The translations under genes were made by a program, and so were the position numbers. The notes under the pieces were generated by a model that saw only the letters and a list, made by a program, of their open reading frames with translations, searched no databases and was not told the DNA's origin. From positions 1 to 54,365 of the IMG/VR virus record IMGVR_UViG_3300021226_000131: a DNA stretch of 54,365 bases. One strand, given 5' to 3'. Every line of letters begins with the position of its first letter. The first letter of the stretch is position 1. The stretch is from a virus. This document shows positions 1-50,834 of the stretch, piece after piece.

Positions 1-121
1 CTTGTTTGCGTTCGTTTTCAGTCGGAACAAATGCTTTTCTTCCTGCGTTTTCTCGCGCTCCGCCGTTTTCCTTAATGCTTTTTCGCTTAAGACTTGATTT
101 TTCAACTTTCTGTGTTGACAT
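1..121 (-). CDS. terS: Terminase small subunit, N-terminal part (cut by window end)
   Basis: This frame begins with ATG at 121-119, about 7 bases after a strong GGAGG Shine-Dalgarno, and overlaps the end of the methyltransferase gene. It reads MSTQKVEKSS and continues to ...GRKAFVPTENERKQ before leaving the window at position 1. A basic N-terminus followed by G-R-x-A-F-x-P-T-x-x-x-R-x-Q is what I know from small terminases of this type. The remaining part is the minus-strand frame entering at 54365: the leftover G of position 1 plus GA of 54365-54364 gives one in-frame codon. About 8 residues usual in the family are missing at the junction, so a few bases may be absent from the assembly. TerS recognises phage DNA and loads TerL for packaging. 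Confidence 0.75.
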   Translation of the reverse strand, partial: MSTQKVEKSSLKRKSIKENGGARENAGRKAFVPTENERKQ

Positions 122-1412
122 TTTTCACCTCCGCAAACGTTTTTCCAGAGGCTTCATGGACAGCCTCTTTGCCCGTAAATTCCTGCCAGCGCGTGACGAT
201 CACGTCGCAGTATTTTGGGTCCAACTCCATGAGCCGTGCAACCCGGCCGTTTTTCTCGGCTGCGATCAGGGTGGTGCCCGAGCCGCCGAAGCTGTCGAGC
301 ACGATGTCGCCGCCCTTGGTGTTGTTGAGAAGCTGGTACTCGAACAGGGCCACGGGCTTCATGGTTGGGTGTTCGCCGTTGCGGCTGGGCTTGTCGAACT
401 CAAGGATGGTGGTCTGCTTGCGGTCGGATGCCCACAGGTGGCCAGCGCCTTCCTTCCAGCCGTACAGGCAAGGCTCGTGCTGCCAGTGGTAGTCCTGGCG
501 GCCCATAACAAGCGACGATTTCTTCCAGATCAGGCACTGGCGCACGGCCCAGCCCGCGTCCTTGGCCGCGCCTCGGAAGTTGTAGCCCTCGCTGTCGGCG
601 TGCCAGATGTAAAACACGGCGCCCGGCTTCATGACGGCGTCGGCAGCGGTGTAAGCGTCGCGCAGGAACTGCCGGAACTGATCGTCGCCCATCTCGTCGT
701 TTTGAATCGTCAGGGCGTCTTTGGTTTTGCCCTCGTAGGCCACGTTGTAAGGCGGGTCGGTGAGCCACATGTCCACCGGTTGGCCGTCGCACAGGCGCTC
801 CAAGTCTGCGATGCTGGTGCTGTCGCCGCAAAGCAGGCGGTGCTTGCCCATGACCCAAACGTCGCCCTGGACGGTCACGGGGTCGACCGGAACGGGTGGT
901 GCATCGTCCGGGTCGGTCAGGCCCTCGGGCAGCTCCTCGGGCATCAGCGCGTCGATCTCGTCCTGGCTGAAACCGGTGAGCTCAACGTCGAAGCCCATCT
1001 CCATGAGATCCTTGAACTCCAGCGCCAGCATTTCGTTGTCCCACCCGGCGTTCAAGGCGAGGCGGTTGTCGGCCACGATGTAGGCGCGTTTCTTGGCCTC
1101 GGACCAGCCCTTGGCCACCATGACCGGGACCTGGGTCATTTTGAGGCGCTGTGCGGCCAACGTGCGGCCGTGTCCGGCAATGATGCCGCCTTGCTCGTCG
1201 ACCAGGATCGGCGTGGTCCATCCCCACTCTTTGATCGAGGCCACCAGCTGCCCGATCTGCTCATCGGAGTGGGTGCGGCTATTGCGTGCGTAGGGGATCA
1301 GTTTTTCGATCGGCCAGTGCTCGATTTTGTCGGCAGGATTTCCGGTGAGGATTTCGCCGGTAATTTGTGGGGCTTGATTTTCCCCGGTTTTTTCAGTCTG
1401 CTGTTTTTTCAT
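102..1412 (-). CDS. ParB-domain DNA methyltransferase (N6-adenine/N4-cytosine type)
   Basis: A 436-residue protein. The N-terminal third (about 32-125) is a ParB/sulfiredoxin-like domain with I-I-A-G-H-G-R-T (77-84). The C-terminal part is an amino-methyltransferase with catalytic TDPPYN (218-223) and an AdoMet-binding D-x-F-G-G-S-G-T-T (373-381); DPPY before FGGSGTT fits the beta class. ATG at 1412 is chosen over a TTG four codons upstream because a GGAG lies 8 bases before it. No restriction endonuclease is adjacent, so it looks like an orphan phage methyltransferase that protects or marks phage DNA; the target sequence cannot be read from the protein. The ParB domain here is a known fusion partner of methyltransferases, not evidence of partitioning. 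It overlaps the start of the small terminase. Confidence 0.93.
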   Translation of the reverse strand: MKKQQTEKTGENQAPQITGEILTGNPADKIEHWPIEKLIPYARNSRTHSDEQIGQLVASIKEWGWTTPILVDEQGGIIAGHGRTLAAQRLKMTQVPVMVAKGWSEAKKRAYIVADNRLALNAGWDNEMLALEFKDLMEMGFDVELTGFSQDEIDALMPEELPEGLTDPDDAPPVPVDPVTVQGDVWVMGKHRLLCGDSTSIADLERLCDGQPVDMWLTDPPYNVAYEGKTKDALTIQNDEMGDDQFRQFLRDAYTAADAVMKPGAVFYIWHADSEGYNFRGAAKDAGWAVRQCLIWKKSSLVMGRQDYHWQHEPCLYGWKEGAGHLWASDRKQTTILEFDKPSRNGEHPTMKPVALFEYQLLNNTKGGDIVLDSFGGSGTTLIAAEKNGRVARLMELDPKYCDVIVTRWQEFTGKEAVHEASGKTFAEVKNVNTES

Positions 1413-1424
1413 GCAGGGCTCCAA

Positions 1425-1686
1425 GTGGTGGGTTGTGAATTATGCAACGGTTTGCCGGGGTTGTGGCTCCGCACAGGATCGCACCGGATTGCACGGGAAA
1501 AATCCCACTCCGCTTGTATTCTTTCTTGCGTGTGTGCGTGTGTGTGCATATGCATAAGGGTATGTTTTATCCTGTGCGATCTTGTGCGGGGGTTAAAAAA
1601 CACAATTAAATCAAAGGGTTAGGTTGTTTTTTGCATCTTGTGCAATCTTGTGCGGCACAGGATGCATCTTGTGCCAAATGCAAAAA
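1425..1686. other. Non-coding gap between methyltransferase and primase genes
   Basis: 262 bases without a supported gene. It holds most of the iteron copies, the 30-nt alternating pyrimidine-purine run at 1527-1556 and the AT-rich stretch at 1592-1634 (with runs of A and T). No clear promoter or terminator was seen. Confidence 0.6.
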
Positions 1687-1803
1687 TCAGAATGGTTCCG
1701 AGTCGCTCTCCCAGTCGTGACGCAGCCGAATTCCGATGCAAAGGTTCAATCTTGTGCGAGATGCGCCATCCGCACAGGATGGATCTGCGGGTGATCCTGT
1801 GCG
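1471..1803. repeat. Iteron-like array, candidate replication origin
   Basis: About eleven degenerate copies of the 10-mer ATC(C/T)TGTGCG lie in both orientations in 330 bp. Reverse-type copies sit at 1471, 1481, 1491 (tandem, increasingly degenerate), 1655 and 1771; forward copies at 1569, 1579, 1635, 1645, 1666, 1749 and 1794. Several are in direct 10-bp phase. An AT-rich stretch (1592-1634) lies between two groups, and a perfectly alternating pyrimidine-purine run spans 1527-1556. The array starts in the gap downstream of the primase-helicase gene and extends into its 3' end. P4-type primase-helicases are known to bind short iterons at their own origin, so this is the best origin candidate. 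Confidence 0.65.
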
Positions 1804-4338
1804 GGAGGCCATCGGTTGGCTGCGTTTGATGCTCGGGAAAGCAGCCGAAAGCTGCCGTCCAAACGACACTTTTGTGCCTGCGTGATCGCGGCCCTGGGCC
1901 TCGCACCACTTCTTCCAGGCCTTGAAAAGCTCGTCGCGGTCGACCTGGGCGTGCTCGCTGACCACGCAAAGTTCGTCCACAAAAGCCCGGATCGGGCTGG
2001 TCTGATCGACCAAGTCGGAGGCCAGCTCGTCGGCTGATTTGGGGCGCTGGAAGTACCCGCGTTGGTTCAAGCGAAGCAGGCCGTCCAAGGCCCACAGGAC
2101 GATGCCAGGCAGCTCCTTAAGCAGTCGGTCGGTCAGGCCATGGTCCTCGCGGCCCAGGAAGCTCGTGTTGAACTTGAAGGGCAAAAACCGGTTGGCCAGG
2201 GCGGCCGAGGCGTCCGAGAAGGCGGGAAGCTCGTTGGAGGCCAGCACGAAGCGAATGGCCATCTTGCCGGACCAGGCGGTCATGTTCTTGCGGTCGATCG
2301 TGATCGTGTCCTCGCCCGAAATCCGCAGCAAGTTTTCCACGATCGGCTGCTGATCGGCCCGGCCGGACAGGCGCGCGTCCGAGATCATGGCCAGGCGCTT
2401 GCCGATCAGGGGCTGCAGGCCGAACTGCGTGCCCAGGGACGCCAGGCTTGGGCTTACCCGGTTGGCGTACCCCACCAGGGCCTCGAGGATGCGCAGGATC
2501 GTGCCCTTGCCGCAGCGCGGGGGGCCGATGAGCATGAACATCTTTTGTTGGCTGGTGTCGTCGGTCAGCAGGTAGCCGAACACCTCGGCCAGGGTGTCGA
2601 TCGACTCGGGGTCGTCGGGCCAGAGGCTGTGCAGGAATTTCAGCCACTCGGTGGGCTCACTGGCGCTGGGGTTGTAGTCAAACGCCAGGGACGAGACGCA
2701 AAACAGGCGGTCCGTCGAGGGCATGATGGTTCGCGTGGGGTGGTGCAGAAACCCGTTTTTAAAGGCCACGATCTCGTGGGCGGGAAAGTCGCCTGGTTTC
2801 GGGTCGATCCAGACCTGGGGCTCAGGCAGGTCGGCGTAGCAGACCGCGCGCAGGGCGTGGGCCACATCGTTGACCGTGCTGGTCTTGGGGTTGAAGGCCA
2901 CCGTTTCGCTGTCGCCCGTTTTGGGGTTGACCTTGAGGGTCATGCACCCGGCCATGAAGTGGTAGAGGCGCTGGTCGATGTAGACCCGGTCCCGGGTGAC
3001 GTAGCGGGTGGTGTCCCAGCTGTAGAACTCGCCGCGCCAGTGCAGGATACGCCCAGCCTCGGGCAGGGTGTCATGGAACAGGGTGGCGGTTTTCATCGGC
3101 GAGGATGAAAAAATCATTGGGGCATCGTGGCTGTCCGGTGGAATGTCGTCCGGGCCGTCGTCGGGCGGGGGTGGGTGGTCAGCGCCGCCAGAGGAGTACT
3201 CCGGGGGGTGGGCAAAAGGGTGGGCCGATTCTGCAAAGCGTTCTGCAGATTCTGCGGAATGGTTCTGCAAAGGCACATCATCCCAAGGCGCACCTTCGGG
3301 CCCGTCGTCACCAGGTGGCAGGGTCTCGGGCTCATCCGGTGAGCCTGCCTTCATGATACCGTCCTCGACTGCAATGAGGCCCTCGGCCAGGTGCAGGTCG
3401 TTGAAGTCGGTACCGGTGCCCCGGTCCACAGACCACAAGGGGATGGCCACCAGGGCGTTGATTTCTCGCGCAGCCTTGCGGGCATCGGTGATGCCCGGAT
3501 TGCCCTTGGTCTGGAAGTCATCGTCGGCCGCGATCACGATTCGGGCGTCGGGAAGGGCTGCGCGGATTTTTCGGGCGACCGGCGCCAGGTTGCCGGAGTT
3601 AAAGGCGACCACCACGCAGTGCCCGGTGGCCATGCGGATGGAGCAGCAGGTGGCCCAGCCCTCGGCGATGATGACCGTACCCTGCTTGTCGGGCTTGCCC
3701 AGGACGGTGTAGGCGCCGCCGGACGGGGTGCCTTTCAAAAACAGCTTTGTGCCGTCGGACTTGATGCGCTGCAGGCCGACCAAGGCGCCGGGGCCGTGGC
3801 GCATGGGGATGAGCAGCTCGTCGGCCAGCTGGCGGGCGCCCTCGGGCTCGATCAGCTTGCGTTGAGCGTAGGGGTGAACGGTTGGGGTGCTGGCCCGGGC
3901 CCACATCTCGGCGGCGCGTTGGGCGGCCAGCTCGCGCTCGATGCGCGCTGCGGTTTCCTCTTCGGCCATCCGGGCCTCGCGCTCAGCGATGCGGCGGGCA
4001 CGTTCTTCGGGGTCGACCGGCTTACGGTCCTGGGCTGTGGATTTGTAGCCGCCCTCTTTGGCCAAGGCGATCAGGGTGCCGATCGTGGCGCGGTTTGTGC
4101 CGCCGCCGGGCTTGCACGATTTCCAGACGTCGCGCGCGTCGCGGGGGTTGTAGTTCGAGCCCTGCTGGCTCCAGGCGTCCCAAGCATCAAAGGCTGGCTC
4201 GCCGAATTCTTCTTTGAGGATGAAGGCCATCTTCACCCAGGTTTCGCGGTCATCAACACCGCGAACGAATGAGAGCATGCGCTCTGCTGTCTCAAGGGAA
4301 ATGGGATCCCTTTGCCCTGTCGGTTTTTTTGTTGTCAT
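1687..4338 (-). CDS. P4-type primase-helicase (PriCT/Toprim/D5-like ATPase)
   Basis: An 883-residue replication protein. Residues about 15-98 form a PriCT-2-like domain (W-V-K-M-A near 34-38). Residues about 160-300 form a Toprim primase domain with EGWAT (226-230) and an acidic cluster ADDD (271-274). A Pro/Asp/Ser-rich linker spans about 335-410. The C-terminal superfamily 3 helicase has Walker A GPPRCGKGT (605-613) and a sensor-like VLASNELP (698-705). This order is the phage P4 alpha / D5 family: primer synthesis and DNA unwinding in one polypeptide, usually paired with an iteron origin, and such repeats overlap this gene's 3' end. The last 40 or so residues are encoded in the repeat region and look like poorly conserved tail. 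ATG at 4338 is the only good start. Confidence 0.93.
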   Translation of the reverse strand: MTTKKPTGQRDPISLETAERMLSFVRGVDDRETWVKMAFILKEEFGEPAFDAWDAWSQQGSNYNPRDARDVWKSCKPGGGTNRATIGTLIALAKEGGYKSTAQDRKPVDPEERARRIAEREARMAEEETAARIERELAAQRAAEMWARASTPTVHPYAQRKLIEPEGARQLADELLIPMRHGPGALVGLQRIKSDGTKLFLKGTPSGGAYTVLGKPDKQGTVIIAEGWATCCSIRMATGHCVVVAFNSGNLAPVARKIRAALPDARIVIAADDDFQTKGNPGITDARKAAREINALVAIPLWSVDRGTGTDFNDLHLAEGLIAVEDGIMKAGSPDEPETLPPGDDGPEGAPWDDVPLQNHSAESAERFAESAHPFAHPPEYSSGGADHPPPPDDGPDDIPPDSHDAPMIFSSSPMKTATLFHDTLPEAGRILHWRGEFYSWDTTRYVTRDRVYIDQRLYHFMAGCMTLKVNPKTGDSETVAFNPKTSTVNDVAHALRAVCYADLPEPQVWIDPKPGDFPAHEIVAFKNGFLHHPTRTIMPSTDRLFCVSSLAFDYNPSASEPTEWLKFLHSLWPDDPESIDTLAEVFGYLLTDDTSQQKMFMLIGPPRCGKGTILRILEALVGYANRVSPSLASLGTQFGLQPLIGKRLAMISDARLSGRADQQPIVENLLRISGEDTITIDRKNMTAWSGKMAIRFVLASNELPAFSDASAALANRFLPFKFNTSFLGREDHGLTDRLLKELPGIVLWALDGLLRLNQRGYFQRPKSADELASDLVDQTSPIRAFVDELCVVSEHAQVDRDELFKAWKKWCEAQGRDHAGTKVSFGRQLSAAFPSIKRSQPMASRTGSPADPSCADGASRTRLNLCIGIRLRHDWESDSEPF

Positions 4339-4657
4339 ACCTGGCGTCTGTTGGCTGGCGAGTAAAAGGTGGGGCAGCCCTCGCCAGGGTCAGGCTTTGT
4401 CCCGCGTGGATCAGACGCGGTAAGCCCCGTGGACAGTATAAAGGTGTGTGGGCGGAAAAACGCAACAGATGCGCAAATAAATGTGCGGAAAACCCGTACA
4501 GGCGTGGTAGGATTACGCCCGACACGCTGCCGGAATGGAGTTCAAGAAACTCGGCGAAAACAGGTCGGTGGCGTGTCAAACTGTCGCGGGCGGTGCTGGG
4601 CACCGGCAGGTCTCATAAGCCTGATCGCGCATGGTTCGATTCCATGGCCCGCAACCA
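4339..4657. other. Intergenic region upstream of primase, with tRNA and inverted repeat
   Basis: 319 bases without a protein gene. It holds the tRNA (4585-4657) and a 7-bp perfect inverted repeat GACACGC (4521-4527) / GCGTGTC (4571-4577) with a smaller GAGTT/AACTC hairpin (4538-4552) inside. On the minus strand, TATACT at 4440-4435 could be the -10 of a primase promoter, but only a poor -35 (TTGCGT, 19 bases away) is visible. Confidence 0.5.
4585..4657 (+). tRNA. tRNA-Met(CAT), initiator-like, short D arm
   Basis: A cloverleaf can be drawn. The acceptor 5' strand CGCGGGC (4585-4591) pairs with GCCCGCA (4647-4653), leaving a first-pair C x A mismatch, the hallmark of bacterial initiator tRNA. 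The anticodon arm is CAGGT-CTCATAA-GCCTG with anticodon CAT (4614-4616), and its loop is identical to that of bacterial tRNA-fMet. The T arm is CATGG-TTCGATT-CCATG (4630-4646). Discriminator A4654 is followed by an encoded CCA (4655-4657). The D region is only 15 bases (4592-4606) and folds as GGTGC-TGG-GCACC, a 3-nt loop, so the molecule is 73 nt instead of about 77. The three G:C pairs typical of initiator anticodon stems are incomplete. It lies opposite to the flanking minus-strand genes. Confidence 0.72.
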
Positions 4658-4969
4658 TCATTCCGCCAGCACCCGCCTGGCGTCCTCCACCGACCGCACG
4701 ATCCCGGCCAAGGCGCCGCGCTTTTTCATGGCGGCGATGAATGCCAGCTGCTCTTTGGTGGCCCGGCCGGTGGCGGTCTTCACCTCCAGGTAGAAAGCAT
4801 GGCAATCAGCCTGGCGGTGGCCAAACAGGTCCGAAAAACCGACGGGCAGGCCCGAGCGCACCGGCCGTCCGTCCTTGGTGAAGAACAAGCCCACGTTGGC
4901 CCGGGCCACGAAGTGCCCGTCCTCCGAGAGAGCGACCATGATCTGGCGCATCAAATCGGATTCGGTCAT
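4658..4969 (-). CDS. VRR-NUC domain nuclease
   Basis: 103 residues, the size of stand-alone phage VRR-NUC proteins. The PD-(D/E)XK core is visible: G-F-S-D-L (catalytic D), A-F-Y-L-E-V-K-T (E and K), then the downstream R-A-T-K-E-Q-L-A-F-I helix typical of the family. Such nucleases process structured DNA, and in phages they sit with replication and recombination genes, as here beside a helicase and a primase. ATG at 4969 overlaps the stop of the upstream zinc-binding gene (ATGA), so it is preferred over an in-frame codon at 4987. Confidence 0.9.
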   Translation of the reverse strand: MTESDLMRQIMVALSEDGHFVARANVGLFFTKDGRPVRSGLPVGFSDLFGHRQADCHAFYLEVKTATGRATKEQLAFIAAMKKRGALAGIVRSVEDARRVLAE

Positions 4970-48632: not shown

Positions 48633-50834
48633 TTACCCTGCGTTGAGTGCGTTGAGATCGCCCACGATGGCGTCGATTCTAGCCGGGTCGAAGTCTACTG
48701 TGTGGGAATTCGCAACCAGGCCGCCGTCAGCGTAGGCTCGAACGTCCCCAGCTTGACCACCGTCTGCGAATCGGTAGGCCGACGCTGGGTCCTGCATCGC
48801 GTCGCTGTTGTAGATGTTGGAGCCGACCAGGCCGTTGCCTGTCTGGCCGTTGCTCACCACGCCGCCTTCAGCGTATTTCTGGACCAGGCCGCCCATGGCG
48901 AAACCTTCGCCGCGCACGCCTGGGGTGAGGCCGGTGCCAAAGGTCCGCTGCAGGTCTTCAATCTCCGCAGGTGACAGGTAGTTCCCCACCTCGCGGCCCG
49001 AGCTCTTTAGGGTCTCCAGCTCCAAGTCGTTAAAAACATCACGTGACGAACGAAGCCCCGTGTTCTGCAGATCACCGATTCGACCCCAGTTCCCAGACCG
49101 GATGAAGTCCTGCACGGCAGGCAGGTACTCTTCCTTGGGTGCGCGGTTGGCCTTGCCTTTGATCTGGACGATTTCAGGGGTGCTTATTTTTCGCGCGTAA
49201 TCCTGAGCTTCTTCAAGAGTTGGGAAGCCGTTACCTTGGTTGTTGACGATAAATGTCGGTCGTCCTTTGAAATTGCCTTCGGTGATCGATGGATTTTCAA
49301 CGCCCGGCGCCACCTCGATCGTCACGTGCGGCTGGCCCTTCTTGTCGCGCAGGCTGTAAATCTTGGACCGACCCTCGACCACATCAGGGCAGTAGCCGCC
49401 GACGCAGTGGCCCATGGTCTCGCCTTCGTACTTGAGGGCGTCCTCCAGGGCTTTGTAGGACTCGTCCATTTCGACCTTCTTCTTGCGGCCGAAATCCTCC
49501 ATGGTCCGGCGCACGAAGTCGTTGAACTCGCGCGTGCCTTCCTCGAGCCCTTCGTCGTATGCCATGTCCATGGCCACTTCGCGGCCCATGGCCTCGTTGT
49601 AGTCAGGAGGCAAATCCATCTCAGGTTTCTCGACGCTGATCTTGCGGCCAGTTTCCTTGGGGGCTTTGAGCTCCACCCACTTGAAGCCCTGGTCCGGGTA
49701 CTCCTTAATCACATGCGTGGCGGGCCCCATCGCCCGCGCCATGTCTGCCTCAGCCTTCTGCGCCGCACGCCACTCGTTGATCTTGGCCACGCGCTCGACC
49801 GCCTGGGGCACGGTGACCTTTTCCAGGTCGGAGTACTTCAGGCGCAGGTTCTCTGGCAAACCGGACGCAGGGTTGATGGCGTTTTTCAGCTCGTCGACCA
49901 GGTGGGTGAATCCAAGATTGGCTGCGGCATCAGACTGCGACGGTAAATAAACGGGCGTCTCTGGGGGAACCTTGGCCAGCCAAGGCATCTGCTCGGCGTA
50001 GCCTTGCCGTAGAAGCTCACCAGCTGGCATCTGGCCAATCGTCACATCACTTGCATCTTCCCACGCTTTTGCCGCTTCGCTTTGGCCCATGGCTTGGTTG
50101 CCAGATTTTCTGCGAAGGTCTGAAGCCAAATACCGATTCAAACCAATTTGCTCTGGGGCAATGTGCAAAACGCCACGCTCAGCCAGCGCGCGGACGGGGT
50201 CCTCGGGCGTAGCCATCTCGTTCTTGATGTACTTGCCGAGCTTGGTTTCAATCCAGCGGTTCATGGCCGCCTCTGGAAGTTGACGAGCACGCACGCTTTC
50301 TGAAACATCGACGCCCGCACGCTCTGCCAAGTTTTGAAGCCCGGTTTCGTTGAGGACCGTTTGCTGCATGGGATTTACTACGCGCTCAACGCTTCCCGTC
50401 ATCCAGTTCCCGCCCTTGGGTTTCACTACGTTCACGGCGGGCTGCCCTGCGGCCATGGCGAAGTCACGCCCAGCGCGCGACACCGCCGATGGCAAGCCAG
50501 CGATCGCACGCAGCGGGGAGCCGGGCCCGGCGTAAAACCCGCCGCCCAGCGTGCCCAACTCGGTCGCGGCACGGCCAACGGGCGTCTGGCTTACGCTGCG
50601 CAACGGAAGGCCAGCCTCGACGTCACGACTGGTTGGCAGCACGGTTTTTTCAGACAGGCCCGGCAGCATGCGCACCAGGGACTCAATATCGCCCGGGGCG
50701 CCAAGCACGCCAGAGGCCAAACCGCGCAGGGCGGCCAGAGGAGCGTTGGCAGATGCGGCGCGGTCGTTGAGCTCAGGACGGCGGCGGCCAGCGGAGCGGT
50801 AGCCTATATACGGCTGGTTCAGATCATCGGCCAC
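48633..50834 (-). CDS. Large protein with PcfJ-like domain and C-terminal A-x-GG motifs
   Basis: 733 residues. N-terminal 1-135 carries Leu/Gly-rich helices (A-A-L-R-G-L-A-S-G-V-L-G-A-P-G-D-I-E-S-L). The middle is helical and charged. Residues about 455-520 carry G-E-T-M-G-H-C-V-G-G-Y-C, then I-Y-S-L-R-D-K-K-G-Q-P-H-V-T-I-E-V, the signature of PcfJ-like proteins, first seen on conjugative plasmids and of unknown biochemistry; the His-Cys and Arg residues are intact. The end repeats K-Y-A-E-G-G-V-V, Y-R-F-A-D-G-G and A-Y-A-D-G-G-L. Placed between TerL and portal, it may be packed in the virion and delivered. Confidence 0.75.
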   Translation of the reverse strand: MADDLNQPYIGYRSAGRRRPELNDRAASANAPLAALRGLASGVLGAPGDIESLVRMLPGLSEKTVLPTSRDVEAGLPLRSVSQTPVGRAATELGTLGGGFYAGPGSPLRAIAGLPSAVSRAGRDFAMAAGQPAVNVVKPKGGNWMTGSVERVVNPMQQTVLNETGLQNLAERAGVDVSESVRARQLPEAAMNRWIETKLGKYIKNEMATPEDPVRALAERGVLHIAPEQIGLNRYLASDLRRKSGNQAMGQSEAAKAWEDASDVTIGQMPAGELLRQGYAEQMPWLAKVPPETPVYLPSQSDAAANLGFTHLVDELKNAINPASGLPENLRLKYSDLEKVTVPQAVERVAKINEWRAAQKAEADMARAMGPATHVIKEYPDQGFKWVELKAPKETGRKISVEKPEMDLPPDYNEAMGREVAMDMAYDEGLEEGTREFNDFVRRTMEDFGRKKKVEMDESYKALEDALKYEGETMGHCVGGYCPDVVEGRSKIYSLRDKKGQPHVTIEVAPGVENPSITEGNFKGRPTFIVNNQGNGFPTLEEAQDYARKISTPEIVQIKGKANRAPKEEYLPAVQDFIRSGNWGRIGDLQNTGLRSSRDVFNDLELETLKSSGREVGNYLSPAEIEDLQRTFGTGLTPGVRGEGFAMGGLVQKYAEGGVVSNGQTGNGLVGSNIYNSDAMQDPASAYRFADGGQAGDVRAYADGGLVANSHTVDFDPARIDAIVGDLNALNAG

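Follow-up and report, generated by a model that had tools for sequence, protein, structure and literature searches.

An array of short iterons at the 3' end of a phage primase-helicase gene is most probably a replication origin that is bound by the primase-helicase's own RFX-type winged helix, specific to iteron class and exchanged as a cassette. The array lies in a 54,365-bp viral record, hereafter the window, and its features are collected in Table 1.

Searching both strands of the window for exact copies of ATCYTGTGCG revealed seven, all within 1470-1803 (334 bp), whereas dinucleotide-preserving shuffles of the whole window gave a mean of 0.47 and a maximum of 3, which agrees with the expectation of an earlier note that the 10-mer is strongly enriched only here. 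Allowing up to one mismatch raised the count for the window to 14, and 11 of these sites belonged to the array. The 11 matched the about eleven copies that the note had described, in both orientations and several in 10-bp phase, with tandem pairs at 1569/1579 and 1635/1645 and the 1470/1480 pair on the opposite strand. The end of the array at 1803 was as given there, while its start was 1470 and not 1471. Three sites (1749, 1771 and 1794) fell within the last primase codons (about 846-864), in agreement with the proposed overlap with the primase C-terminus, and the remaining eight lay beyond the primase stop, in the intergenic DNA before the next gene. The AT-rich segment placed amid the array was likewise confirmed (72% AT, compared with 39% for the whole window); the 43-mer at 1594 was the joint most AT-rich of the window, and alignment of relatives showed that the segment contains a conserved CCTTTGATTT-like element on the minus strand. 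The iterons of the window thus flank an AT-rich region in sets directly 3' of the proposed initiator gene, as in P4/SaPI-type origins. No second cluster of the word occurred elsewhere in the window, and cumulative GC skew rose almost steadily along the contig with no clear minimum. Scans of 1300-2000 returned no sigma-70-like promoter, no RNA family in Rfam and one terminator-like site (1342-1360), no more than in shuffles.

Table 1 Features of the iteron array and its surroundings in the window.
Feature	Positions	Strand	Remarks
ParB_N / N6-N4 DNA methyltransferase gene	102..1424	-	downstream of array; context only
Variable cassette	1450..1890		approximate; wing coding sequence and array
Iteron	1470..1479	-	exact, ATCCTGTGCG
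Iteron	1480..1489	-	1 mismatch, ATCCGGTGCG
Alternating purine-pyrimidine tract	1527..1556		perfectly alternating, 30 nt, Z-DNA-prone
Iteron	1569..1578	+	exact, ATCCTGTGCG; tandem with 1579 iteron
Iteron	1579..1588	+	exact, ATCTTGTGCG
AT-rich segment	1592..1634		candidate melting site
Iteron	1635..1644	+	1 mismatch, ATCTTGTGCA; tandem with 1645 iteron
Iteron	1645..1654	+	exact, ATCTTGTGCG
Iteron	1654..1663	-	1 mismatch, ATCCTGTGCC
Iteron	1666..1675	+	1 mismatch, ATCTTGTGCC
P4/SaPI-type primase-helicase, 883 aa	1687..4338	-	proposed initiator; Pfam and PHROG matches
RFX-type winged helix	1717..1992	-	residues about 783-874; proposed origin-binding domain
Iteron	1749..1758	+	exact, ATCTTGTGCG; within primase codons 861-864
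Iteron	1771..1780	-	exact, ATCCTGTGCG; within wing-loop codons
Iteron	1794..1803	+	exact, ATCCTGTGCG; within wing codons 846-849
Residue 843 codon	1810..1812	-	at the wing tip; putatively reads base 1 of the iterons

The Pfam matches of the primase (PriCT_2, Toprim, D5_N, DUF5906 and Pox_D5) place it in the D5/P4 class of primase-helicases, and its closest solved structure in the PDB was 7ola, titled 'DNA primase', which we take to be the SaPI5 primase-helicase. A full-length AlphaFold model was too poor to use (pLDDT 55), and the C-terminal domain was modelled alone instead with AlphaFold2, at a moderate pLDDT of 74 and under 50 in the wing loop. This model resembled hRFX1 (1dp7, Z 8.9), RFX5 (8zjr, Z 8.8) and the origin-binding domain of P4 alpha (1ka8, a moderate Z of 7.2 over 81 residues), and the assignment to the P4 origin-binding fold gained independent support from sequence profiles, in which the domain matched RFX5 with an E of 2e-5. 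Across 57 family members, Pox_D5 was detected in 53 and RFX_DNA_binding (PF02257) in 37 (best E 2.5e-8); the window primase itself scored 18.9 bits for PF02257, for which the cut-off is 27. RFX1 reads the DNA major groove with its wing and not with the recognition helix (PMC4333399), and by analogy the wing of the primase C-terminal domain may contact the major groove of the iterons. A viral primase-helicase tail that resembles both P4 alpha and RFX1 has already been described for the C962R protein (PMC10516667).

We compared the locus with 50 viral loci encoding a close primase, some of them cut. Wherever a close relative included the 3' end of the primase gene, an array was present there, as expected from the earlier note, with its iteron sites spaced from the primase stop as in the window. 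Tandem GGCACARGAT occurred in 23 contigs of a 2.9-million-contig collection, of which 21 encode this primase alongside; the remaining two were an array at a contig end (L084) and a chance match (L074). Tandem C-, T- or A-class 10-mers without the primase (L059/L062/L066, L060 and L064) proved unrelated to the family. The first three of these share a near-identical non-primase sequence with four tandem similar 10-mers, TGCACAGAAT CGCACAAGAT CGCACAGGAT CGCACAGATC. Six further matches yielded a single family member, L184, on a contig already known.

In many distant relatives (about 40-60% identical), found on viral contigs and on genome contigs that carry the labels Steroidobacteraceae, Acetobacteraceae, planctomycetes and Mesorhizobium, the unit repeated at the primase 3' end was another word, in sets of both orientations: ten copies of TGGAACGC in L092, ten of CGGTACT in L174, and also TGGCACGC and GCGACGGT. 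Distant initiators with other wings had other words. In short-wing relatives the two upstream coding iterons were missing because the insertion in the wing loop by which they are encoded is missing too. Not every member of the wider family has this arrangement: several distant relatives lacked an array in this position, and no repeat enrichment was seen at the primase 3' end of three named phages (9NA, Yara and RS10pmA), with only a borderline one in the uncultured freshwater phage LR797314. Searching with the primase region at the nucleotide level matched none of the named phages, and at the protein level every relative was under 60% identical.

Pairwise comparison of near-identical phages showed that the wing and the array vary together. 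The window and L008 were about 95% identical on both flanks (the helicase part and the methyltransferase gene) but only 63-79% identical across 1500-1799, the wing itself being 79% and the intergenic array 68% identical. The same held for 30 close pairs with both flanks over 92% identical, several of them near-copies and all falling in several separate lineage clusters, in which the module was only 68-82% identical. The drop in identity began sharply at the wing; between L018 and L033, for example, it went from 99% in the core of the domain to 72% in the wing. Nearest neighbours by module and by flank disagreed for the window, L008, L018 and L027. L017 and L063 had 99% identical modules in different methyltransferase backgrounds, and the modules of L034 and L041 were 93% identical over downstream DNA that was 46% identical. 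At the level of sequence, such a pattern is that of recombinational exchange, and some of the low identity of the module could be due to rapid divergence in place. Two other variable stretches were observed between otherwise near-identical phages: a short patch at 100-199, in the 3' end of the methyltransferase gene, where identity to L008 and L027 fell to about 70%, and 4400-4700, just upstream of the primase gene, where differences were strong.

To this cassette-like variation, which upholds the earlier proposal that origin and initiator tail evolve together, we could add a correspondence between one residue and one base. Written in primase orientation the iteron word is NGCACARGAT, and its base 1 differs between classes: most phages have G there, the window, L012 and L190 have C, and L017 and L063 have T (words of the window, L008 and L017 classes: CGCACAAGAT, GGCACAAGAT and TGCACAAGAT). 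Base 1 was G at 237 of 276 NGCACA sites in G-class phages, C at 16 of 20 in the window and L012, and T at 8 of 12 in L017; no A-class phage was found. The switch to C is incomplete in the window, as 3 of its 10 NGCACA sites retain G or T. Residue 843 was Arg in all G-class primases, Met in the window, L012 and L190, and Ser in L017 and L063. Only columns 843 and 846 among the 883 separated all three classes; 846 is encoded by iteron DNA, and the codon of 843 lies outside it. Residue 836, the other C-class candidate outside iteron DNA, was eliminated by L190, a phage retrieved later that again combines M843 with C-class iterons although its residue 836 is Gly; its module is only about 71% identical to that of the window, and its upstream sequence is too short for placement by helicase. 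In the profile alignment, position 843 stands opposite the Gly of the RFX wing turn, and Arg-guanine is a standard contact. We infer that residue 843 helps read iteron base 1, pairing Arg with G, Met with C and Ser with T. In the methyltransferase tree, well-supported branches force four class changes, and the mutational origins of the switches may number only two or three; a sign test on independent pairs gave p 0.125 with four pairs, a number with which 0.05 cannot be reached.

The coding iterons also seem to leave a mark on the protein. The only AGA codon of the primase sits in the 1749-1758 iteron (AGA makes up 0.9% of Arg codons in 15 window genes), and at the same iteron the family's GTRLN becomes RTRLN in C-class phages because the switch to C dictates the change. 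At these codons, a constraint at the DNA level thus appears to override the protein sequence.

Three other readings of the repeats were weighed. Since the adjoining methyltransferase gene has a ParB_N domain and is transcribed away from the array, the repeats might form an operator or parS-like site, or the regulatory region, of that gene. We rejected this reading, which is highly improbable, because arrays persist where the fetched DNA contains no methyltransferase gene (L034, L029, L030, L067, L152, L092 and L174); the nearly shared module of L034 and L041 over dissimilar downstream DNA, the position of repeats inside the primase gene and the tracking of classes by a primase residue also speak against it. 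If the primase tail bound the array as an autoregulatory operator that keeps expression or copy number in check, with the origin elsewhere, winged-helix binding would account for all the covariation, and P4 does have a second iteron cluster far off, in ori. The array is, however, downstream of the primase gene and not at its promoter, 1300-2000 gave no sigma-70-like promoter, the window has no second cluster of the word, and SaPI/PICI elements use an identically laid-out array as origin (PMC6092414), which together make an operator an unlikely explanation.

It is similarly doubtful that a host protein or another phage protein binds the repeats and that the primase wing covaries only by sharing a recombining segment. 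The wing is physically linked to the array, so that hitchhiking would give association without contact, and the independent switches are few; yet only 2 of 883 columns split the classes, the sole one not encoded by iterons is the wing-tip residue of an RFX-type domain, L190 repeats the Met-C pairing in a module far diverged from that of the window, and other wings go with other words in distant initiators. Both a purely autoregulatory role and binding by another protein are therefore less likely than a P4/SaPI-like origin.

A further conserved element of this putative origin is the alternating purine-pyrimidine tract, which is the longest such run of the window (the next longest is 15 nt) and sits between the tandem 1569/1579 iterons and the oppositely oriented distal iterons 1470/1480. 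In the close family, a 16-30-nt run was present at the tract position in 31 of 31 distinct sequences, the window included. At distant loci, the longest alternating run lay within the origin window in 17 of 34 cases compared with 1.4 expected (binomial p 3e-15, a value that ignores relatedness, several loci being near-copies). The tracts differed in sequence, and with 53-72% GC and only 4% TA steps they are of the CA/CG type that is prone to form Z-DNA rather than AT-rich melting sequence. The property was kept while the sequence changed in L089, L157, L160, L166, L174 and others, relatives with other iteron words included. The 1527-1556 tract may accordingly form Z-DNA. A literature search of incomplete coverage found no description of Z-DNA paired with iteron phage origins.

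The evidence points to a P4/SaPI-type origin, with iteron binding, melting and origin activity as its presumed functions, and to the following mechanism. The RFX-type winged helix at the C-terminus of the primase-helicase would bind the 10-bp iterons, with the wing probably inserted into the major groove and residue 843 at its tip helping to read base 1. Oligomers would assemble on the iteron sets to either side of the AT-rich segment and the alternating tract; DNA opening and helicase loading would follow, and then priming by the primase domain. Because the array lies partly inside the wing codons and the rest directly after them, a single recombination event could transfer lock and key together, so that near-identical phages would carry different and probably mutually incompatible origin specificities. 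Selection may have favoured such changes because they let a phage evade an attacker that targets the origin, or avoid competing with relatives in the same cell. It is quite possible, if short of probable, that this represents a widespread origin type in which iterons lie partly inside the initiator wing, wing and iterons form one cassette, a wing-tip residue-base code sets specificity and the Z-DNA tract is a working part.

Comparison with known systems placed the array close to two of them. As in P4 alpha, a primase-helicase carries a C-terminal winged helix, here the predicted origin-binding domain, and short iterons in both orientations lie directly 3' of the gene (P4 crr 4291-4590, alpha end 4636). 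The parallel with P4 drawn in the earlier note holds for the protein class, as judged by Pfam; P4 crr itself begins only after the alpha gene, without overlapping it. P4 also differs in that its iterons are divided between crr and ori, several kb from each other, where the window has one cluster, in its word, GTGAACA, and in the lack of a long alternating tract (maximum 12 nt). In SaPI/PICI elements the origin is immediately 3' of pri-rep, with two iteron sets around an AT-rich region (PMC6092414), and the C-terminal domain of Rep recognises the origin (PMC7581432). The window shares the position of the array 3' of the primase gene and the iteron sets flanking an AT-rich region. Unlike these satellites, it is a phage of about 54 kb whose record has its own terminase large subunit and head/tail-type matches, its array extends into the initiator's wing codons, and its family has the alternating tract and single-residue/single-base class switches between near-identical phages.

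For the exchange itself, the nearest precedent of origin diversification appears, by analogy, to be the RepA/origin modules of the Vibrio cholerae PLE, in which origin and RepA domain swap as a module and escape the ICP1 origin-directed nuclease Odn (PMC8263062). In both systems the origin, here a putative one, covaries with the initiator's DNA-binding domain and is exchanged as a module, but PLE RepA has a RepA_N domain and belongs to a different protein family, and the PLE origin is intergenic, outside the initiator gene, with semi-palindromic iterons of about 30 bp. The winged helix appears to share the fold of hRFX1 and RFX5, by profile (RFX5) and by modelled structure; RFX proteins are eukaryotic regulators, whereas here the fold is a predicted viral origin-binding domain, fused to a primase-helicase and bearing an extended wing loop.

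These phages offer a natural mutational series in which initiator and origin would change specificity together, with a single candidate residue and a single base. Judging by the cassette pattern, diversifying pressure may act on phage origins, as in PLE satellites facing an origin-directed nuclease (PMC8263062), which makes a search for origin-directed attackers or origin-based incompatibility concrete. The persistence of the tract despite changes in its sequence and in the iteron word would make a role of Z-DNA-prone DNA at origins directly testable.

Two further observations concern the genome as a whole. L045 and L048 are the same 54,326-bp contig with the primase gene split across its two ends, which suggests that the genome, of about 54 kb, is circular or circularly permuted. 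At 48633-50834 the window encodes a large protein with a PcfJ-like match (PF14284).
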